DNA of 16,030 nt from Sulfurimonadaceae bacterium (GTDB taxonomy: Bacteria; Campylobacterota; Campylobacteria; Campylobacterales; Sulfurimonadaceae): assembly GCA_030610325.1 (NCBI GenBank), contig JAUWRZ010000007.1:1-16030 (forward strand), given 5' to 3'. Shown piece after piece: positions 1-15,050 of this stretch. The translations under genes and the position numbers were made by a program. How positions within the stretch are numbered: the stretch's first letter is position 1; each line of letters begins with the position of its first letter. Under the pieces are notes generated by a model. It was given only the letters and a program-made list of their open reading frames with translations, was not told the origin of the DNA and ran no database searches.

Positions 1-577
1 AACCTGTGTTCCAGTAGATAAGGAAGATACCGATCAGCATACCAAGGTCAGCGATACGGTTCATGATGAACGCTTCGTTCGCTGCCCCTGTCGCTGACTC
101 TTTGTGGTACCAGAAACCGATCAGCAACCATGAACAGAGACCAACGCCTTCCCAACCTATGAAGAGACCAGCAAAGTTATCACTCATGACCAGGATCATC
201 ATCGAGAAGACGAAAGCTGAAAGGTATGAGAAGAATCGGTTAAAGCCCTTGTCATGATCCATATAACCTATGGAGTAGATATGGACTACTGTAGAGACGA
301 TAGTGACGACCATCATCATCGTCACGGAGACCTGGTCTACTACAAAGCCAAACGGTATGTAAAGGTCACCCGTCTCCATCCATGTCATCATCTCGACATG
401 TACAGTATTACCTGCAAGCACATGAGTAAGCAGTATGGTACTACTTACCAGTGAAGCGAATAGAAGGCCGGTCGGGACCAGACCCGCAATGATCGTCTTT
501 GGACGAGCGCCAAACAGACCAGCAAAAAGCGAGCCTACAAGCGGTGCAAAGAGTGCAATATATAAATACGTTTCCAT
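1..577 (-). CDS. nuoL: NADH-quinone oxidoreductase subunit L, N-terminal part (cut by window edge)
   Basis: This is the first 192 codons of the large antiporter-like proton-pumping subunit of complex I, a multi-spanning inner-membrane protein; the rest lies beyond position 1. The translation starts METYLYIALF and shows several hydrophobic helices. It contains the NuoL signature GWEGVGLCSWLLIGFWY at residues 141-157, whose Glu143 matches the conserved proton-path glutamate of the family (E. coli Glu144), and NRIADLGM near residue 173. I chose the ATG at 577-575 because a GAGG ribosome-binding site at 590-587 lies 9 nt upstream. In-frame ATGs at 586 and 583 lie too close to that site, although the one at 586 would overlap the nuoK stop as ATGA. 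The gene follows nuoK directly and is clearly translationally linked to it. Confidence 0.95.
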   Translation of the reverse strand, partial: METYLYIALFAPLVGSLFAGLFGARPKTIIAGLVPTGLLFASLVSSTILLTHVLAGNTVHVEMMTWMETGDLYIPFGFVVDQVSVTMMMVVTIVSTVVHIYSIGYMDHDKGFNRFFSYLSAFVFSMMILVMSDNFAGLFIGWEGVGLCSWLLIGFWYHKESATGAANEAFIMNRIADLGMLIGIFLIYWNTG

Positions 578-582
578 TTCCA

Positions 583-891
583 TCATCCTCGCATCGTTGT
601 CATCATATCTAAGTCGATCTTACCAGTACGCTTGTACCAGACGATCAACAGACCAAGTCCGACTGCCACTTCAGATGCTGCTATCGCGATGACGAAGAAC
701 GCAAACATCTGACCAGTCAGGTCACCGTAGTAGTGTGAGATCGCCGCAAATGCGACATTGACCGAGTTTAGTAAGATCTCTGTAGCAAAAAAGAGCAACA
801 GAAGGTTCTTACGACGCATGACACCGATCAGTCCGATAGCAAACAGTATCGTCGAAAGGACCAGATAGTGTGAAAGTCCGATTTCCATCAT
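583..891 (-). CDS. nuoK: NADH-quinone oxidoreductase subunit K
   Basis: Small membrane subunit of complex I, 102 residues with three predicted transmembrane helices (about residues 5-25, 29-50 and 61-85), the usual length and topology of the family. The two conserved membrane glutamates needed for proton transfer are present as Glu38 (ATEILLNSVNVAF) and Glu74 (IAASEVAVGLGL). The start ATG at 891-889 overlaps the nuoJ stop as ATGA, and AAGG about 7 nt upstream can serve as ribosome-binding site. A second ATG follows at once, so the first methionine may not be used. Translational coupling J to K to L is evident from the overlaps. Confidence 0.97.
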   Translation of the reverse strand: MMEIGLSHYLVLSTILFAIGLIGVMRRKNLLLLFFATEILLNSVNVAFAAISHYYGDLTGQMFAFFVIAIAASEVAVGLGLLIVWYKRTGKIDLDMMTTMRG

Positions 892-1463
892 GAGGCAGCC
901 TTTTCATTGGTTTCGACCGAAAGTGGAGACTTGTCTTCATCTAACAGTGTCAACGAGGTGTCCATCTTCTTACCGGCAAGGATAATACCACCGATCATAG
1001 CCACCAGCAGCATCACCGCAGCGACCTCGAACGGGACCAGATATTTGGTAAAGAGTACCATACCTACAGCCTGAGCATTACCGACACCTTCCTGAACAGG
1101 ATAGAGTGCAGCGATATTGTCAGAGACGATCGGTGCAGCAAAGATAAGTACGATAAGCAGTGCAGCCATACCACTCATACCAAAGACCAGCATCGGAGAT
1201 GTACGTTTTTCTACGACATCGCGTGTCGTATCGAAGAACATCATACCAAAGGCGTAGAGTGCCAGTACAGCACCTGTATAGACTATGATCTGTACTGCAC
1301 CAAGGAAGTCTGCCCCGAGAATAAAGAAAAATGCCGAGATAAAGATCATTCCGGCTGCCAGTGAAGTCAGGGCGTAAAGTGCCTGAGAGGTCAACACAGC
1401 TATCGAGAACATCGAAATAGTCAAGATGGCAAAAAGATAAAAAGCGATTGCTTCAAACATCAT
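888..1463 (-). CDS. nuoJ: NADH-quinone oxidoreductase subunit J
   Basis: Membrane subunit of complex I, 191 residues with five predicted transmembrane helices. The family hallmark is the third helix, read here as YTGAVLALYAFGMMFF, the flexible helix that links the quinone site to the proton channels. A hydrophobic helix near residues 155-165 is followed by a polar C-terminal tail (KKMDTSLTLLDEDKSPLSV) ending in KAAS. The start is the first of two adjacent ATGs, preceded by AGGAG. The gene lies 6 nt downstream of nuoI and overlaps nuoK by 4 nt, so it belongs to the same transcription unit. Confidence 0.95.
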   Translation of the reverse strand: MMFEAIAFYLFAILTISMFSIAVLTSQALYALTSLAAGMIFISAFFFILGADFLGAVQIIVYTGAVLALYAFGMMFFDTTRDVVEKRTSPMLVFGMSGMAALLIVLIFAAPIVSDNIAALYPVQEGVGNAQAVGMVLFTKYLVPFEVAAVMLLVAMIGGIILAGKKMDTSLTLLDEDKSPLSVETNEKAAS

Positions 1464-1469
1464 AACTCC

Positions 1470-2087
1470 TTAATACGCAAGAGGCGTTTTCTTAACGCTC
1501 TTGTCACTTCCTGGGATAATAGCACCGAATCCAGGGAACTCTTCCTGCTGTCCGGCTTTTAAAGCATCGATCGGTGTCAACATATCTTCGAACTCTACAA
1601 AGTGTGCACGCTGCTCTGAAGCGTTCTCATAACGACCGCCATGAACGATCGCCAGCTCTGGGCACACTTCCGCACAGTAACCACAAAAGATACAGCGTCC
1701 AAGGTTGATACTGTACTCAGTGACCTCTTTACGACTGTTCTCATCATACTTAGTGTCCATTCGGATACAGTCAGAGATACAGATCTTCTCACACAATCCA
1801 CAACCGATACAGCGTTCTGTACCTGATTCGAAAAGACGTAACATCTTATGGACCGCGCGATAACGTGGTCCTATAGGTAACTTCTCTTTAGGATACTGAA
1901 CGGTATGGATGTCAAATTTGAACATCTCACGCAGTACGACCCATAGACCTACAAAGAGCTCACCTTTGAGTGATCTTGAAGCCACCTGCTTGAACTTACC
2001 CCAACCTGTCTCGGGATAATCCTCGATGTCCACCATATAGTAGCCATCTTCTCCAACATTTCTGTCTTTAAATTTTTCAAAACTCAT
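1470..2087 (-). CDS. nuoI: NADH-quinone oxidoreductase subunit I, two [4Fe-4S] clusters
   Basis: Peripheral subunit carrying clusters N6a and N6b, which pass electrons from NuoG toward NuoB. It has 205 residues. The two ferredoxin motifs are complete: Cys93/96/99/103 ([11 protein letters not shown]) and Cys132/135/138/142 ([12 protein letters not shown]). The first motif is followed by ISDC instead of the usual proline, and Cys107 is an extra cysteine. The roughly 90-residue N-terminal part includes the amphipathic region that contacts the membrane arm. The start ATG is preceded by AAGGGTG at suitable spacing, and the gene lies about 9 nt after nuoH. The protein ends TPLAY, a tail also found in NuoC of this operon. 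Confidence 0.97.
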
Positions 2088-2096
2088 TGCGCACCC

Positions 2097-3086
2097 TTAA
2101 AACATCATCACGATGCCGGTGATCACTATATTGACCACGGCAATCGGCATTAGTACCTTCCAGCAGAGCCACATCAGCTGGTCTGGTCTTACATCCGGCC
2201 ACGCAGCACGTGTCCAGAGAAAGAAGAAGAAGATAAACGAGACTTTACCCAGAAGCGCGAGCGCTCCACCAACTGAACCATCACCAAAACCGCCAAGGAA
2301 TATCAAGGCGATCACAAAGGAGATGAAGAACATGTTGGCATATTCACCAATAAAGAAGAGACCCCAACGCATACCGGAGTACTCAGTACCGAAACCATCG
2401 ATGATCTCATGGTCATTCGCTATGAGGTGGAACGGTGTACGTCCAGTCTCTGCGAATGCTGCGATGACAAACAGGACAAAGGCTACCGGCTGTGACCAGA
2501 TCATCCAAGAGCCTACACCCGCAGCCTGATAGTTATTAAAATCTATCAGAGAGAGTGATCCGACCATCATTATCGGAGCGAGAAGCGACAGTCCACTTAC
2601 GACCTCATAAGAGATAAAGACCGACGCGGCACGCGCAGCGGAGATAAGTGACCACTTATTTGCCGAAGCCATACCACCAAGTAGCGGACCATAAAGTCCG
2701 ATCGCCATGACACCCAGTATGTAGAGAATACCGACATTGATGTCTGAGATAATAGGATGGACCTCATAACCAAAGATCGTAAAACTCGGCATGAACGGGA
2801 TAGCAGCCGCCGCCATAAAGGCGGTCGCTGCAGTGATCACTGGTGCGATCTTAAAGATAGGACCGACGACGTTCTGTGGGACGATATCCTCTTTTGTGAA
2901 GAGTTTTACACCATCAGCCGCGATCTGAAGCAGACTGTACGGACCGACATGCATCGGCCCCAGTCGTCGCTGCATGAAAGCCAACACCTTTCGTTCGAAG
3001 TAGGTACCAAATCCGGCCAGCGCCGAAAATACCAGCAGGAGTATGACGATCTTGATGACCGTCTCTATTAAATATGCTGTATCCAT
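2097..3086 (-). CDS. nuoH: NADH-quinone oxidoreductase subunit H
   Basis: Membrane subunit that forms most of the quinone chamber and the entry of the E-channel; 329 residues with about eight transmembrane helices. Family motifs include GTYFERKVLAFMQRRLGP (residues 27-44), DGVKLFTKEDIVP (58-70), and TEYSGMRWGLFFIGEYANMF (234-253). The loop that usually reads PFDLxExExE reads PFHLIANDHE here, so the near-invariant Asp is His220, the first glutamate is Ala223, and Asp225 and Glu227 remain. Campylobacter NuoH is also divergent here as I remember it. The start ATG lies 3 nt after the stop of the second nuoG, with AAGGTG as ribosome-binding site inside that gene's end. Confidence 0.97.
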   Translation of the reverse strand: MDTAYLIETVIKIVILLLVFSALAGFGTYFERKVLAFMQRRLGPMHVGPYSLLQIAADGVKLFTKEDIVPQNVVGPIFKIAPVITAATAFMAAAAIPFMPSFTIFGYEVHPIISDINVGILYILGVMAIGLYGPLLGGMASANKWSLISAARAASVFISYEVVSGLSLLAPIMMVGSLSLIDFNNYQAAGVGSWMIWSQPVAFVLFVIAAFAETGRTPFHLIANDHEIIDGFGTEYSGMRWGLFFIGEYANMFFISFVIALIFLGGFGDGSVGGALALLGKVSFIFFFFLWTRAAWPDVRPDQLMWLCWKVLMPIAVVNIVITGIVMMF

Positions 3087-7829: not shown

Positions 7830-9824
7830 TTACTGCGCTATCATAGCTATATAGTAACAGCGCATACAGCGTTCTGCTTCGCTGAGTCCCTGCTCCTGAG
7901 TGAACCCGTAGTTCACCTCTTTGTTGTTGTCTTTACGTTCGTCGACTTCGAGGACTTCACTCTGTTCACGAGGGATACCCGGAAGCCAGCCAGTGACCTT
8001 CTCTTTCTTATCATAGACCCGCATCTTGCGAAGGTGGTCTTCCATGATCTCATCATCTGTCAATGTGATCTCACCCGTCTCCATATAACGTGCCATGACA
8101 GAAGCAGCACGTTTTGCCTGACCGACCGCATTGACGATCGTCATCGGACCGTATTCACAGTCACCTGAAGCGAAGATGCCTTTACGTGAGGTCATATAGT
8201 GGACACCATTGGTCTTGATAGTCCCCCATGAGGTCATCTCAAGTTCCCACTCTTGGGGAAGAAGGTCAAGATCTGCACTTTGCGATACAGCCGGAATCAG
8301 GAAATCTGAGTCGATCGTATAAGACTCGCCTTCGATCTTGACAAGCTGAGCTCGTCCGCCGTCAGGGTCTGGTACCAGCTCAAACTTATCGATAAGCAGA
8401 GACTTGATGACATCTTCTTCATCATTGATATTGTTCACCGCAGAGTGGAAGAGGAACTCGACGCCCTCTTCTACTGCTTCGTGATACTCTTCATAGGTCG
8501 TATTACGGATGATAGTCTTCTCATCACGACGATAGATCATGTAGACTTTCTTGGCATTGGCACGGATAGAACAGCGCACGACGTCCATAGAGGTAAAACC
8601 ACCACCTACACAGACGACTGTCTTACCGGTAAGGTCTACCTCTTCACCGATACCGTACTTCTCGAAAAGATTGACCTGGTCAAGCATCTCGATCGCGCTC
8701 CAGTAACCATCAAGCTCAGGACGTTCATTACTACAACGTACTTTTTTAGAGATACGTGTACCAGTGGCGACCATCACAGCATCATAATCTTTCTCATACT
8801 GACGCATCATATCTGCACTCACACGAGAGTTAGTGATGAAATTGACGCCAAGGTCTCTTACTGCTTCTATATCCTGGTTGTATTTATCGATCGGCATACG
8901 GTATTCTGGTACACCGACAGCGACCTCACCACCAAGGACCGGCAACTCTTCAAAGACATCTACATGGACACCTTCCAGTGCCAGGTAGTATGCCGTAGTC
9001 AGACCGGCAGGACCAGCACCGATGACGGCGACTTTCTTATCACCTTTTGGTTTTGCTTCTGCCGGATGGAAGAAGCCGAAACCGTGATCAGTCTCATAGT
9101 CAGCACCCAGACGCTTAAGCTCCATGATGGCAATAGGGGCATCAAGGTTGGTACGACGACAAGCATCCTCACATGGGTGAGGACAGACTCGGCCACAGGT
9201 GTGTGCCAATGGCATCGTCTGACGTGTAGCTCTTAGTGACTCATCAAAACGGAGGTCACGAACGCCTTCGATATAACCAGGGATATCGACATGTGCCGGA
9301 CAGGCATCAGTACAAGGTGCTGTGATCTTTGCGATGTAGTTCACTTCAGTATCATAATGCTTTGATGGCACCTGTTCGTCAATACATCGGTCAAACTCAT
9401 CTTTAAAATGTTCCATAAGGTCCATAAGAGGATTTGGAACGGTCTTGCCGATCTCACATTTGGAAGTGAGTTGCATGCTTTTAGAGACCTCTTTGAGATG
9501 GGCTACATCATCATAGGTGCCTTCGCCACGGGCGATCTTATCTAACAGATCATAGAGGATCCTGCCACCCCAACGTCCCGGTGCACAACGGCCACAAGCT
9601 TCGGAATAGACCTGATACTGCGCTGCATACTCTGTTGCAAGCCGTACCACATCCACATCCGGATCAAATAGCGCTACACCGTCCCAGCCTATAAAAGCCT
9701 TTGATTCACGATGATCGTCATACTGTGCCGGTAGATTGTAAGCAGACTCTTCCCACGCATCTTCAGCTTTGCCGACATTACTTATCTGCTCGCCTCGCCA
9801 AGTGGAAAAATAGACTTTACTCAC
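7830..9824 (-). CDS. NuoF-position flavoprotein: N3-cluster remnant fused to a GltD-like FAD/NAD(P)H module
   Basis: A 664-residue protein in the place of NuoF. The NADH/FMN-binding glycine-rich domain of true NuoF is absent. Residues 75-144 resemble the NuoF C-terminal cluster domain (EACGRCAPGRWG, then KCEIGKTVPNP), with Cys77, Cys80 and Cys123 present but Gly83 where the third ligand should be. Residues 171-222 are the double iron-sulfur domain of glutamate synthase small subunits (CTDACP, then CGRVCPHPCEDAC). FAD binding follows at 265-300 (VAVIGAGPAGL and FEELPVLGGEVAVGVPEYRMP), and a second nucleotide site at 402-434 (VVCVGGGFTSMD and YRRDE), typical of NAD(P)H. GASGD-like FASGD at 551-555 closes the FAD site. 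The start is GTG with GAGG 7 nt upstream. It probably feeds electrons to, or takes them from, NuoG; the donor (NADPH, NADH, flavodoxin or ferredoxin) is not settled by sequence. Confidence 0.88.
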   Translation of the reverse strand: MSKVYFSTWRGEQISNVGKAEDAWEESAYNLPAQYDDHRESKAFIGWDGVALFDPDVDVVRLATEYAAQYQVYSEACGRCAPGRWGGRILYDLLDKIARGEGTYDDVAHLKEVSKSMQLTSKCEIGKTVPNPLMDLMEHFKDEFDRCIDEQVPSKHYDTEVNYIAKITAPCTDACPAHVDIPGYIEGVRDLRFDESLRATRQTMPLAHTCGRVCPHPCEDACRRTNLDAPIAIMELKRLGADYETDHGFGFFHPAEAKPKGDKKVAVIGAGPAGLTTAYYLALEGVHVDVFEELPVLGGEVAVGVPEYRMPIDKYNQDIEAVRDLGVNFITNSRVSADMMRQYEKDYDAVMVATGTRISKKVRCSNERPELDGYWSAIEMLDQVNLFEKYGIGEEVDLTGKTVVCVGGGFTSMDVVRCSIRANAKKVYMIYRRDEKTIIRNTTYEEYHEAVEEGVEFLFHSAVNNINDEEDVIKSLLIDKFELVPDPDGGRAQLVKIEGESYTIDSDFLIPAVSQSADLDLLPQEWELEMTSWGTIKTNGVHYMTSRKGIFASGDCEYGPMTIVNAVGQAKRAASVMARYMETGEITLTDDEIMEDHLRKMRVYDKKEKVTGWLPGIPREQSEVLEVDERKDNNKEVNYGFTQEQGLSEAERCMRCYYIAMIAQ

Positions 9825-10068: not shown

Positions 10069-11295
10069 CTAACGGTCGACTTCACCGAAGACGATATTGG
10101 TAGTACCAATGATCGCAACGACGTCTGGGATATAGTGACCCGGTAAGAGGTCAGTCAAGATTCCTGTGTGCCAGAACGACGGCGCACGCAGCTTAAGACG
10201 GTACGGATATGGACCACCCTGGGAGTTGATGTAGTATCCAAGCTCACCTTTTGGTGACTCAGTCGGGATATAGACCTCACCTACTGGAGGACGCATACCC
10301 TGAGTGACTAGTACGAAGTGCTGCATCAGTGAGTAGTTCTGCGTCATGATATCGATCTTTGGTGCTGAGATATATTTAGGAGCATGTGCCATCAACTCCG
10401 GTGTAGTATCGAAATACATCGGGATCAGTTGATGTAGGATCTTCGCAGACTCACGCATCTCCATCATATAGACCTTATAACGCGCGTAGTTATCGCCCTT
10501 ATCAGAGTAAGGGATATCAAAGTCTACTTCGTCATAAAGCTCATACGGCTCCTCTTTACGGATATCCCATTTGACACCGGAAGCACGTAACATAGGACCG
10601 GTACAGCCCCAGCTTAGTGCCATCTCAGTAGAGATGACTCCGACCTTCTCCATACGCATACGCCAGATACGGTTGGTATCGAGCAGGTCCTCATAATCTT
10701 TGATGTTCTCCGGAAGCTTCTCAAGGAACTTTCTGAGATCACCCATAAAGTTATCTGGAAGGTCCAGAGGTACACCGCCGATACGAATAGCTGAGTGTGT
10801 AAGACGTGCTCCACAATAGTCCTCGATAAGGTCCATCAGATATTCGCGTTCACGGAAAGCGTACAGGAAGACTGTCATAGCACCGATATCCAGTGCTGTA
10901 GTAGCCAGCCAGAAAAGGTGAGACATCAGACGGTTTGTCTCAAGTAGCATCATACGGATGACTTTTGCACGACGAGGTACTTCAAGTCCGATAAGCTCTT
11001 CTACTGCCAGGACAAAGCCATAGTTGTTTGAGCTTGACGCGATGTAGTCCATACGATCTGTCGTCGGCATGAACTCATTGTAGATCATGTTCTCAGCCAT
11101 CTTCTCCATACCGCGGTGAAGGTACCCGACATCCGGATGGGCTTTTACTATCTGCTCTTGTTGCAGGTGCAGCATCAGACGCAGCTGACCGTGAGCTGAA
11201 GGGTGCTGAGGACCGAAGTTCAGTACCAGTTCATTGTCATCACGGTCAAACGTGATATTCTCAAAAAATGGACGTAGTCTATTGGTTTGTTGCAT
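10069..11295 (-). CDS. nuoD: NADH-quinone oxidoreductase subunit D (49-kDa type)
   Basis: Subunit of 408 residues that forms the quinone-reduction pocket together with NuoB; its fold is that of the [NiFe]-hydrogenase large subunit without the metal-binding cysteines. The quinone-head ligands are conserved: His35 in [13 protein letters not shown] and Tyr84 in [16 protein letters not shown], a constant offset of three from the Thermus residues His38 and Tyr87. The C terminus is the canonical [11 protein letters not shown]. NuoC and NuoD are separate genes here, not fused as in E. coli. The start ATG is preceded by AAGGA 7 nt upstream, and the gene follows nuoC after 10 nt. Confidence 0.98.
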
Positions 11296-11305
11296 ACAGC
11301 TGTCC

Positions 11306-12121
11306 TTATCTGTCTCTGTCGCGGATCACGACAGATTTCTCTTCATCGAACTTCTCGATCATGAAGACGCCTTCTTCTTCCTGATACGCAAGAGGTGTAG
11401 TAGGCTCAGGCCCTTTACTCTCTTTTGGCTCTGCACCACGAGGGACTTCGTGGCCAAGACGTCCGAAGCGCTCAGTATCGTAACGATCTACCATTGCAGG
11501 ATCACGATTTTCCGGTCCGATGATGTCACGGGCCTCTTTACCAAAGATCTTATCGACCTCATACCACTGAGCGAACTCATCACCTTGAAGCGGATAGCTC
11601 TTATGGAGTGGATGACCTTCCCAGTCATCAGGCATAAGGATACGCTTCATGAACGGATGGTTGTTCACCTTTAGTCCAAGCATATCATAAGCTTCACGCT
11701 CCGCCCAGTCAGCTGAACGAAAGAGTGGATTGACACTCTCTACAGCAAGTCCCTGGTCAATAAAACACTTTACACGGATACGTTTACGTTTGTTCATACT
11801 TAGCAGTTGATAGAAGACCTCTAACTGACCTTTGTCAGCTAACCAGTCTATCGCGCTCATCTCTGAGAGTTGCGTGTAGTCACATTCGTCTTTGAGCACT
11901 TCAAGTACACCATAGTTGTCTTCAGGCTTGATGATGACGACCATCTGCTTGACCTGGATATAAGCTTCGATGACTTCGAACTTCGCTTTGATCGCTTCAA
12001 GATCAGCAGCAAACACCTCATCACTCTCTACTGTGCTCTTTGGCACCTGAGGCGCTACCCAGTAACGGTCTGTGTAGTAAGCTTTTTTCTGTGCGTCTTT
12101 CTTATCTGTATATGCTCTCAT
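11306..12121 (-). CDS. nuoC: NADH-quinone oxidoreductase subunit C (30-kDa type)
   Basis: Structural subunit of the connecting arm, 271 residues. The family signature spans residues 138-178 ([19 protein letters not shown], then [17 protein letters not shown]). The N-terminal 35 residues are charged and of low similarity to the family core. Residues from about 225 onward form a polar extension containing TTPLAY and ending [11 protein letters not shown]. The same TPLAY tail ends NuoI. The ATG follows the nuoB stop with no gap (TAGATG), and an AAAGG site lies inside the end of nuoB, so the two genes are translationally coupled. Confidence 0.97.
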
Positions 12122-12631
12122 CTACATCAACCTTTTTGGTTTTTGTGATTTGATCGCCTTCTCACTACGGATCTTCTTCTGTAGCAGCATCACTCCATAT
12201 TGAAGTGTCTCCGGACGAGGAGCACAACCAGGCAGGTAAAGATCTACCGGGATGACACGGTCAACACCCTGAACAGTAGCGTATGTGTTGAACATACCAC
12301 CCGTGTTCGCACATGAGCCCATAGAGATGACCCACTTAGGTTCTGTCATCTGATCATAAAGACGTCTGATGAACTCAGCATGCTTCTTTGTCAGCGTTCC
12401 CGCGACGATCATGATATCAGCCTGACGTGGTGACGAACGAAAGATAGTACCAAAACGGTCAAAGTCGTAACGTGATGCCCCTGAGGCCATCATCTCGATA
12501 CCACAACATGCCAGACCGTAAGTCAGAGCCCAAAGCGAGTTTGAACGACCCCAGTTTGCCAATTTGTCAATAGATGTCAATGCGACCGGTAGGCCGCCAT
12601 CTTGCATATAATTTACTTGATGCTGTGCCAT
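12122..12631 (-). CDS. nuoB: NADH-quinone oxidoreductase subunit B, cluster N2
   Basis: Subunit of 169 residues that carries the terminal [4Fe-4S] cluster N2, the direct electron donor to quinone. All four ligands are present: the tandem Cys42-Cys43 ([14 protein letters not shown]), Cys107 ([12 protein letters not shown]) and Cys136 (LPGCAPRPE). Length and motifs are those of an ordinary NuoB. The start ATG has a near-perfect AAGGAG site 7 nt upstream and overlaps the end of nuoA by 19 nt. The basic C terminus ([12 protein letters not shown]) is family-typical in character. Confidence 0.98.
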
Positions 12632-13002
12632 TCAAGCGCTCCTTTTTTCCAAGCATAAACGAAACCAATAGCCAGCAGTAAGATGAACAGTAACATCTCA
12701 ACAAAGCCAAACCAACCTAAGAGTTTGAAGTCGATCGCCCATGGAAACATAAAGACGATCTCCACATCAAACAGTAAGAACAGAAGTGCGAACAGGTAAA
12801 ACTGTGACGAGATCCTGTTTGGCTGTTTGGTCACTTCCGGACCACATTCATAAACGGTAAGCTTTAACTTCTCCGTATCTTTTGCAGCTAGTGCACGGCT
12901 TGCCAGACGGGCAATAACCGTTGTCGCATAAAATGCACCAAATGTCAGTACAAATAGCACAAAAACCCCAAAGTAAGGATTCATCGTGTCAACGTGCTCC
13001 AT
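12613..13002 (-). CDS. nuoA: NADH-quinone oxidoreductase subunit A
   Basis: First gene of the operon and a membrane subunit of 129 residues with three transmembrane helices (about residues 9-32, 68-88 and 97-117). The loop between helices 1 and 2 contains the conserved YECGPE (51-56), and helix 2 carries the conserved Asp79 and Glu81 in LLFDVEIVF. The ATG at 13002 is preferred over Met7 because AAGGTGG lies at 13013-13007. Transcription most likely begins in the 311-bp region upstream. Confidence 0.97.
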
Positions 13003-13313: not shown

Positions 13314-15050
13314 TCAGGTACTTAAGAAGCCCATCGACTTCTCTGAGTCGAAGTTTCCGCTTCGCTCTTTATCTATCTCAGCCTTTAATCCAGTCAAAGT
13401 GAAAAGCGGCTCTTGCGCTGTCGCTACGGTATAGGCGGTATTTTTGATGATAAGGTTTATCTGCCCGCCACTAAGGGCATACTCGGACAGTACTGAGGCA
13501 TCGAACCCCTCCTCATATGGTGCGTTTTTCGGAAGCATCTGTTCCCATAAAAGCTGCCGTTGCGCCTTGTTTGGCTTTTTAAACTCGATCTTGTAATTAA
13601 AACGGCGAGAGAAGGCCATATCGATGTTCTCAAGCAGGTTCGTAGTCGCTATCAGTATGCCTTCAAACTTCTCTATCTGCTCAAGAAAGATGTTCTGCAT
13701 CTGGTTATGCATCTGGTCAGCACTGGAGTTCACACCACTTGAACGTGAACTCAGAAACTGATCAGCTTCATTAAGCAGCAGTATAGGCTCTGTCTTTGTC
13801 CGTTTAGTCAAGTCCTTGTAGGTATCGAAGATCTTACGTACGTTCTTCTCACTCTCTCCGACATACATAGAGAGGATCTTCGAGCAGTCAAAGCTCAGTA
13901 CCTGTCGTCTGAGTGACTTGCCAAGCGAATGCGCCGTCATCGTCTTTCCGGTGCCTGGAGGTCCATAAAAGATGATGCGTGCGTCTATCCCTTTACGACG
14001 CTCTTTTATGCCCCACTCGTGAAGACGGCTGATCACGGTCTTATCTACCTGCTTCATCAGGTTCTGCAACGTCTCATGTGTCTTGGGCTCAAGTACTACA
14101 TCATCGAGGTCTGTAGCAGACTCTACGAGTTCGAACAGGTCCTGCTCTTTGATGAGCATATCCAGTTTCAATCTACGGACTTTTTTCTTTTTCTGAGGAT
14201 GGATGATGGACTGAAGTACCTCATCTGCTATATAAAAAGCCCGGGTGATCCCACCAAAAGGATTAAGCATCTCCTCATAATCCATGATATCCTGACTCAA
14301 AAGGCGTGAGCCCTCTTCGAGCAGGGAGCGGTTTTTGATGCGTTCATACTCATCGAGACTGATGAGATCGATCAGGGCGTTCATCTCACGCAGGTTAGCA
14401 TCACCCGCACTGTACTCCTCTTTAAGTAGTGCAAGGAATATCACCTGCTCTTTGGGATCCAGTTTCTTCTGCTTGAAAAAACGGTCGAGTACTACCTCCT
14501 GATCAGTCTGAGAGATCCGGTCCTCTATCCTTTTTTCCAACAACTCAAGCTTGCTCTGTATCCGGTCGATACCGAGCGAGTGTTCATGGACACTATGTCG
14601 GATACCACTCATCTTCTGATAGAGCTCGATACGAAAGAACTGGTCTTGCAGATACTCGAGATGATCGGCATAAGGCTTTATATCAGGTAGCCTCATCTCC
14701 AGAGAACCCTCTTCAAGAAGTCTTAGAAACGAATGGGTCAGTGCGACTGCCGTGTTCAATAACTCAAGGTGAGTAAGATCGCTGATCTTGACCGGAGTAA
14801 AGGAGTTTTGGGTGATCCAGCCCAGTTCCAGCAGACTCTTTATCTGTTCAAGGTGGTTCACATATGCATACTCTTCCACACCGTAGAGCTCTTGAAGCAG
14901 CTCCAGTACAATATAGTCCTCCTGCCCGGCTATAAACTTCTGAGCCAGTAACTGTAGGATGTTCGCTTCATCTACCTCACACTTGAGTTGGGAGAATATC
15001 TTGGTCTCTGCAACCTCTTCGTTCTCTAAAAAATCGATTAAAAATTTCAA
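13314..15050 (-). CDS. AAA-family ATPase with long helical N-terminal region
   Basis: A 578-residue soluble ATPase. Residues 1-320 are mostly helical and charged, without a recognised domain; 156-186 could form a coiled coil. The C-terminal AAA module has Walker A GPPGTGKT (363-370), a pore-like MYVGESEKNVRK segment (395-406), Walker B ILLLNEAD (423-430) with Asn427 in place of the usual Asp but Glu428 kept, sensor-1 ATTN (468-471), arginines 482-483 (FSRRF), and the sensor-2 region SGGQI (527-531). It resembles FtsH/Vps4/CDC48-class remodelling ATPases in this module; its substrate is unknown. The start is TTG at 15050, because an in-frame TGA lies 18 nt upstream and no ATG or GTG follows before well-formed protein; GAGAGAGA precedes it. 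It stands between an acyl-CoA synthetase gene and nuo, without evident functional connection. Confidence 0.87.
   Translation of the reverse strand: MKFLIDFLENEEVAETKIFSQLKCEVDEANILQLLAQKFIAGQEDYIVLELLQELYGVEEYAYVNHLEQIKSLLELGWITQNSFTPVKISDLTHLELLNTAVALTHSFLRLLEEGSLEMRLPDIKPYADHLEYLQDQFFRIELYQKMSGIRHSVHEHSLGIDRIQSKLELLEKRIEDRISQTDQEVVLDRFFKQKKLDPKEQVIFLALLKEEYSAGDANLREMNALIDLISLDEYERIKNRSLLEEGSRLLSQDIMDYEEMLNPFGGITRAFYIADEVLQSIIHPQKKKKVRRLKLDMLIKEQDLFELVESATDLDDVVLEPKTHETLQNLMKQVDKTVISRLHEWGIKERRKGIDARIIFYGPPGTGKTMTAHSLGKSLRRQVLSFDCSKILSMYVGESEKNVRKIFDTYKDLTKRTKTEPILLLNEADQFLSSRSSGVNSSADQMHNQMQNIFLEQIEKFEGILIATTNLLENIDMAFSRRFNYKIEFKKPNKAQRQLLWEQMLPKNAPYEEGFDASVLSEYALSGGQINLIIKNTAYTVATAQEPLFTLTGLKAEIDKERSGNFDSEKSMGFLST

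Follow-up and report, generated by a model that had tools for sequence, protein, structure and literature searches.

The fusion gene and its operon

The DNA analysed here, referred to as the window, is the whole stretch of 16,030 nucleotides (contig JAUWRZ010000007.1, assembly GCA_030610325.1) from a Sulfurimonadaceae bacterium. Its minus strand carries an operon for respiratory complex I (NDH-1), in which the core genes for NuoA-D and NuoH-L lie together in the order nuoABCD-X-fusion-G1-G2-HIJKL, with gaps of -19 to +11 bases between genes (Table 1). The window end cuts nuoL and the count of core genes stops there, with nuoM and nuoN outside the window. The subject of this report is the fusion gene, an intact open reading frame (ORF) with a GTG start that joins a remnant of NuoF to an iron-sulfur/flavin module of the GltD type. 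The NADH/flavin mononucleotide (FMN) module of complex I, NuoE plus NuoF, is missing from the operon: the fusion lacks PF01512, the NADH/FMN domain of NuoF, and a PF16514 protein, NuoX, stands in NuoE's stead. The same gene order is found in relatives' loci. A scan of relatives' contigs with close-relative patterns yielded 217 confirmed loci, and the best 80 of these, 76-95% identical, come from Sulfurimonas, Sulfuricurvum and metagenome-assembled genomes labelled Sulfurimonadaceae, Helicobacteraceae, Campylobacterales, Arcobacter or bacterium, which assigns the window to a Sulfurimonadaceae-like bacterium.

The domain order that an earlier note on this DNA had read from the sequence, a NuoF remnant followed by a GltD-like module, holds in the Pfam search, with PF10589, PF14691 and Pyr_redox_2 in the one intact ORF. 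PF01512 is not among the Pfam matches of the fusion, and the NuoF model TIGR01959 matches it only over its last 120 positions (290-409 of 410), in agreement with the note's claim that the NADH/FMN domain is gone. A NuoF nucleotide motif that was tried as a control on the canonical NuoF gave no match.

The 132 fusion ORFs gave 124 distinct alignment rows after duplicates and short pieces were dropped. Cys171, 175, 214, 218 and 222 are invariant in these rows, and Cys653 and Cys656 are present in 123 of them, the ORF of the remaining one being cut; one row is without the N3 part, again because its ORF is cut. How the cysteines of the GltD module are assigned to individual clusters is our assumption. 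The N3-type domain named in the earlier note is present as PF10589, but with three cysteines rather than four. It keeps Cys77, Cys80 and Cys123 of the NuoF set, and the third cysteine of the motif CGxCxPC is Gly83 in all 123 rows having that column (control: CGQCTPC in the canonical NuoF of the same genome, locus L001). The N3 site would thus have a cluster ligated by three cysteines, hold 3Fe-4S or be empty. Compared with a relative whose fusion is 95% identical (L078), the nonsynonymous and synonymous divergences are dN 0.023 and dS 0.47 (dN/dS about 0.05), and on this sequence comparison the gene is under purifying selection. A chance or mis-assembled join as the source of the fusion is ruled out by the 124 distinct aligned rows together with the purifying selection.

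A strong fusion match (E <1e-100) is present in 126 of the 397 Campylobacterota genomes of our phylum sample; the search tally of 194 in this sample includes weaker GltD-type matches. In a family sample, 193 of 200 matched at 1e-30, weak matches included. Nine of the 126 strong matches cover the GltD part only, namely a piece in genome G199 and eight members of family f2 with longer ORFs. The four f2 loci that were fetched (L047-L050) do carry the N3 cysteines; their ORFs, of 724-962 aa, have extra sequence around N3 and also keep Lys237. PF16514 occurs in 332 of the 397 genomes and PF01512 in 96. Among the 28 fusion genomes with a PF01512 match, to which the genome of the window belongs, 11 have only ORFs of >530 aa, which by their length are probably of the hydrogenase or formate-dehydrogenase type.

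The genome of the window also has canonical nuoD, nuoE, nuoF and nuoG together on contig C4 (L001), which is a second complex I. A canonical nuoE/nuoF pair elsewhere in the genome, which in the earlier note would have told against the fusion if it assembled with this complex, does therefore exist. However, the nuoD on contig C4 is only 36% identical to that of the window, its own nuoG adjoins, and 98 of the 126 genomes with a strong fusion match have no PF01512 match. For these reasons, the NuoEF of contig C4 probably does not supply the input module that this complex lacks, and we regard it as highly improbable that the complex uses NuoE/NuoF encoded elsewhere, with the fusion as an accessory.

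Table 1. Features of the complex I operon and of the fusion protein in the window
Feature	Position	Strand	Basis and remarks
nuoH, nuoI, nuoJ, nuoK and start of nuoL	2..3086	-	ORFs; same operon
nuoG2, 830 aa	3090..5582	-	same cysteine sets as nuoG1
nuoG1, 746 aa	5579..7819	-	cysteine sets for clusters; partner of fusion
Fusion gene, 664 aa	7830..9824	-	ORF, Pfam, NuoF model, alignment, AlphaFold model, fold search
C-terminal tail, residues 626-657	7854..7949	-	Cys653/Cys656
FAD/NAD(P)H two-Rossmann module, residues 263-570	8115..9038	-	Pyr_redox_2; GAGPAGL, GGGFTSMD, YRR431-433
GltD-type iron-sulfur domain, residues 168-247	9084..9323	-	PF14691 (Fer4_20); Cys171, 175, 214, 218, 222; Lys237
N3-type domain, residues 73-146	9387..9608	-	PF10589, NuoF iron-sulfur region
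nuoX, 74 aa	9836..10060	-	PF16514; between nuoD and fusion
nuoA, nuoB, nuoC, nuoD	10069..13002	-	ORFs; NuoD by Pfam; same operon as fusion

Upstream of nuoA, a 578-aa AAA ATPase with a winged-helix domain is encoded at 13314-15050 on the minus strand. Such an ATPase lies near nuoA in 15 of 38 fetched regions, with and without the fusion, several of the regions ending short of there. It is possibly a complex I assembly factor.

NuoX, the two NuoG proteins and the origin of NuoY

NuoG1 and NuoG2 each have cysteine sets for N1b, N5, two ferredoxin-type [4Fe-4S] clusters and N7, the cluster names and their motifs being those that we take to apply to NuoG. Each cluster ligand is kept in at least 87 of the 90 NuoG1 rows, which are complete ORFs of 640 aa or more. 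The 97 NuoG2 rows, of 700 aa or more, keep all ligands except for the N7 set, which is kept in 84 and lost in 13. Because NuoG2 occurs both with and without the fusion, we infer that it holds the position of the canonical NuoG. In two relatives nuoG2 is split into two ORFs (L044, 12438-14051; L051, 14046-14462), through a frameshift or a real split. NuoX and its homology were absent from the earlier note. Its match to PF16514 is clear (E 1.3e-38, Pfam), and it also matches PDB 2LXR, HP1264 of H. pylori (E 5.2e-23), which, according to a review passage, binds FMN and has a novel fold (PMC6269979). The 74 residues of NuoX contain no cysteine. The gene is present in 130 of the 132 fusion loci.

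In 90 of these 132 loci NuoG1 is at least 600 aa long. The edge of the locus truncates it in 39 others, no NuoG1 was seen in 2, and in the last one (L111) it has 591 aa, with full-length homology interrupted by one in-frame stop. In 24 loci without the fusion (L052-L067 and L070-L077, all picked by their nuoX), the gene after nuoX encodes 215-351 aa and, from gene order and family, would be NuoY of the Cj1574c type. In L077, NuoX and NuoY form a single ORF with PF16514 at residues 1-72 of 351. A profile of the short NuoY proteins aligns with NuoG1 at positions 328-770 of 776 with a probability of 100% (E 5.5e-64) and more weakly with NuoG2 (E 1.8e-23), and no cysteine column is common to half of its rows. 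Judged by sequence, the short NuoY is what remains of NuoG1 at its C-terminal, cluster-free end and is not by descent a substitute for NuoF. A worn-down copy of the fusion was also considered as the source of NuoY and rejected, as the profile matches the fusion with a probability of only 0.07%. Some observations weigh against an origin from NuoG1: 3 of the 24 NuoY proteins (L070, L072, L076) have singly no BLAST match to NuoG1 at 1e-4, that of L075 matches only the last 110 residues of NuoG1, and matches to the NCBIfam NuoG model are weak (E ~1e-4) in two of the four tested.

Along a nuoD tree with 50 rows, the fusion changes state 9 times, at least 6 of them on well-supported branches. Among the 49 rows with both traits, 25 have the fusion with a long NuoG1 and 24 have no fusion with a short one, where NuoG1 was counted as long at >=480 aa and five of the long ones are edge-cut pieces of 494-507 aa. 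All 6 independent pairs agree with this link (P = 0.031). The suggestion in the earlier note that the fusion goes with two nuoG genes is borne out in this form, full-length NuoG1 accompanying the fusion and short NuoG1 its absence. The simplest reading would be a repeated joint loss of the fusion and of the Fe-S part of NuoG1, a regain of the fusion by transfer of the whole operon being a possible alternative. The outgroup branch of the tree is very long, and the root and the choice between loss and gain of the fusion rest on parsimony. One genome (G208) has two short-Y nuo operons (L066 and L067). In the nuoD tree the second of these falls in with another family, a likely sign of transfer or of a mixed bin.

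Proposed flavin chemistry and electron path

The AlphaFold model of the fusion, built with 21 sequences, has a mean pLDDT (predicted local distance difference test) of 79, which is good for the overall fold; that of NuoG1 reaches 77, and its Fe-S region is poor as well. In the fold comparison, by which residues 1-167 were barely covered, the closest relatives of the modelled fusion are the GltD modules of the Stn/NfnABC transhydrogenases. The top sequence match among PDB chains is NfnABC 9bov, with NfnL 4ylf second (E 1.4e-76), and both halves of the fusion find Stn/NfnABC complexes among their best PDB matches. The analogy with NfnB/NfnL drawn in the earlier note is weakened by this: NfnL is close by sequence, but Stn/NfnABC is closer by fold and ranks first by sequence. 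The cysteines of the fusion have aligned counterparts in both NfnL and StnC. Cys653 and Cys656, at the C-terminus of the fusion, correspond to a pair that lies in the tail of the StnC GltD domain but at the N-terminus of NfnL. Moreover, at the position of the NfnL Glu all 124 rows have a lysine, Lys237, as StnC does with Lys170. In StnC, Lys170 ligates the cluster proximal to the flavin adenine dinucleotide (FAD), and this FAD is non-bifurcating according to passages in PMC10482914.

We consider it probable that the fusion complex pumps protons as an NADP(H):menaquinone oxidoreductase, with a non-bifurcating flavin of the Stn type and the fusion as its entry subunit, plausibly run in reverse for CO2 fixation. 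The sequences show the gene order, the domains, the conserved ligand positions, the link with full-length NuoG1 and the lack of a PF01512 match in most sampled carriers; the cofactor, the electron path, a linear rather than bifurcating chemistry and the direction of flow are inferred. Electrons would enter a proton-pumping complex I of free-living Campylobacterota through the fusion. Within its GltD-like module, NADP(H) and FAD would exchange hydride, and single electrons would pass via the two GltD [4Fe-4S] clusters, one of them with the Lys ligand, and then the three-Cys N3 to NuoG1, NuoG2, NuoI, NuoB and menaquinone, while the membrane subunits would pump protons. NuoX-FMN may add a flavodoxin port. 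In autotrophs with the reductive tricarboxylic acid (rTCA) cycle the complex would run in reverse and make NADPH at the expense of the proton-motive force and of the quinol that sulfur or H2 oxidation supplies. Menaquinone lies at about -80 mV and NADPH at about -320 to -380 mV. With these potentials, four protons at ~150 mV would pay for electron transfer from quinol to NADP+ but barely for that from quinol to ferredoxin, which favours NADPH as the product of reverse flow. The genome of the window encodes the citrate-binding domain of ATP-citrate lyase, in keeping with the autotrophic setting assumed in the earlier note, and the rTCA cycle is reported for Sulfurimonas in passages of two papers (PMC4584964, PMC7952632).

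Several points weigh against this reading. The cluster loops are poorly predicted in the fusion model, with pLDDT <50 at residues 76-81, 164-177, 220-228 and 654-664. N3 is one Cys ligand short, and its cluster may be absent or 3Fe-4S. The preference for NADPH would follow from homology and from the YRR431-433 pair, which presumably has a role in NADPH binding. NfnL 4ylf outranks two of the three Stn/NfnABC chains by sequence, with similar identities, and Arg309, the counterpart of the bifurcation arginine of NfnL (Arg201), is kept in all 124 rows. These rows come mostly from Sulfurimonadaceae-type loci (103, with 21 from other families). Two NuoG proteins would also have to fit into one arm. 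Finally, close kin are reported to use flavodoxin and NuoX may bind FMN, so that NADP(H) is perhaps not the sole partner.

The earlier note had raised bifurcation as a hypothesis. The FAD would then be a bifurcating flavin like that of NfnL, sending electrons both to quinone, via NuoG, and to ferredoxin or flavodoxin, so that quinol, ferredoxin and NADPH would be coupled. The module belongs to the same superfamily as NfnL, its second-best sequence match; there are many clusters and, in NuoX, possibly a second flavin; and the rTCA cycle requires reduced ferredoxin, as passages in PMC4584964 and PMC7952632 state. Arg309 fits as well, but its counterpart is also kept in StnC (Arg239), so this residue does not discriminate bifurcating from non-bifurcating enzymes. 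The invariant Lys237, on the other hand, is the state of StnC with its non-bifurcating flavin. Pfam finds no added ferredoxin domain in the fusion, and the NfnS family, PF10418, has no match in the genome of the window (83% complete) or in any of the 61 sampled family genomes that include it, whereas 6 of 14 control genomes were positive. Lys237 and the absence of PF10418 set NfnL-type bifurcation back as a first choice, and we now think it improbable.

Electrons could instead enter or leave at NuoX-FMN, with the GltD module as a flavodoxin/ferredoxin:NADP reductase on the same complex. The retention of NuoX in fusion loci and the wide occurrence of its family agree with this (the short-Y loci, chosen by their nuoX, were excluded from the argument), as do the FMN binding of HP1264 reported in part of a review (PMC6269979) and the use of flavodoxin by C. 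jejuni complex I given in passages of PMC6682613 and PMC4178425. However, the GltD module is gained and lost jointly with the Fe-S part of NuoG1, which would better fit a wire from FAD to NuoG1 than a separate reductase, and such a machine seems to us a doubtful possibility. That the module is a structural relic, retained for assembly with its redox function lost, would accord with the missing N3 cysteine and with the cluster-free NuoG1 domain retained in short-Y lineages. It is at odds with the low dN/dS and with cofactor and ligand residues invariant across the 124 sequences, and appears very improbable.

An extension of the NADP(H):menaquinone reading is offered tentatively, as a possibility somewhat short of even. 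A complex I partnered by NADP(H) rather than NADH, with an arm lengthened to two NuoG proteins and up to ~16 Fe-S clusters as counted from motifs, would be reversed by the proton-motive force to supply CO2 fixation with NADPH and possibly with a low-potential carrier via NuoX-FMN, and the flavodoxin type of Campylobacter and Helicobacter would be its reduced descendant, with NuoY as the leftover of NuoG1. The electron route from menaquinol to the potential of the rTCA cycle in H2S- and H2-oxidising Campylobacterota is a gap in energy models, which a complex I with a Stn-type NADPH module would, if real, fill. It would also demonstrate that complex I can exchange its NADH module for a flavin module of another kind.

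Comparison with known systems

In our literature search, which left many journals outside so that an earlier notice is possible, neither the fusion nor a descent of NuoY from NuoG1 was described. A 2025 survey with hidden Markov models has a Campylobacterota clade of complex I-like enzymes in one of its passages (PMC12361115), and part of the Nautilia genome paper proposes reverse electron transport via a partial complex I without E, F, G and K (PMC2628731).

The StnABC/NfnABC enzymes of Sporomusa (8oh5), Caldicellulosiruptor (9bov) and Thermococcus (9n5u) share with the fusion, in alignment positions, the GltD-like module with its FAD-proximal lysine and a C-terminal tail that bears the cysteine pair, and their GltD module works with NuoF- and NuoG-like parts, likewise here. 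In StnC, however, the GltD domain is built into a NuoG-like subunit, and a NuoE/NuoF-like FMN module is present. Neither arrangement is found here, where the N3 remnant is joined to GltD, NuoG has a gene of its own and the operon encodes a membrane complex I. NfnAB (NfnL, 5jca/4ylf) has the same GltD fold with FAD and two clusters and is close to the fusion in sequence. NfnAB differs by its Glu ligand, its N-terminal cysteine pair, its NfnS partner and ferredoxin as its acceptor. As part of one article notes (PMC7483475), Stn and related NADPH enzymes combine GltD-like with NuoG-like parts. The same source describes such a pairing in the SfrAB-type NADPH reductase of Geobacter and in NsoABC, a soluble Fe(III) reductase and a sulfur oxidoreductase, respectively, and not proton-pumping complex I.

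Within complex I, canonical NuoF has the N3-type domain and the operon position of the fusion, which is without the Rossmann/FMN NADH domain and has three N3 cysteines instead of four. According to passages in a review, Campylobacterota carry nuoXY in the place of nuoEF and likely have flavodoxin or ferredoxin as partner; Arcobacter butzleri has retained the canonical nuoEF (PMC6682613). The NuoX/NuoY complex I of C. jejuni (Cj1575c/Cj1574c) and H. pylori shares with the fusion loci the same operon, nuoX and the lack of NuoEF. There, going by gene order and family, NuoY would be a cluster-free C-terminal fragment of NuoG1, and no GltD module is present, whereas in the fusion loci the fusion and a full NuoG1 stand beside NuoX in place of a short NuoY. 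The co-loss of the fusion and the Fe-S part of NuoG1 gives a sequence-based origin for NuoY of the Cj1574c type, reviewed as replacing nuoEF together with nuoX.
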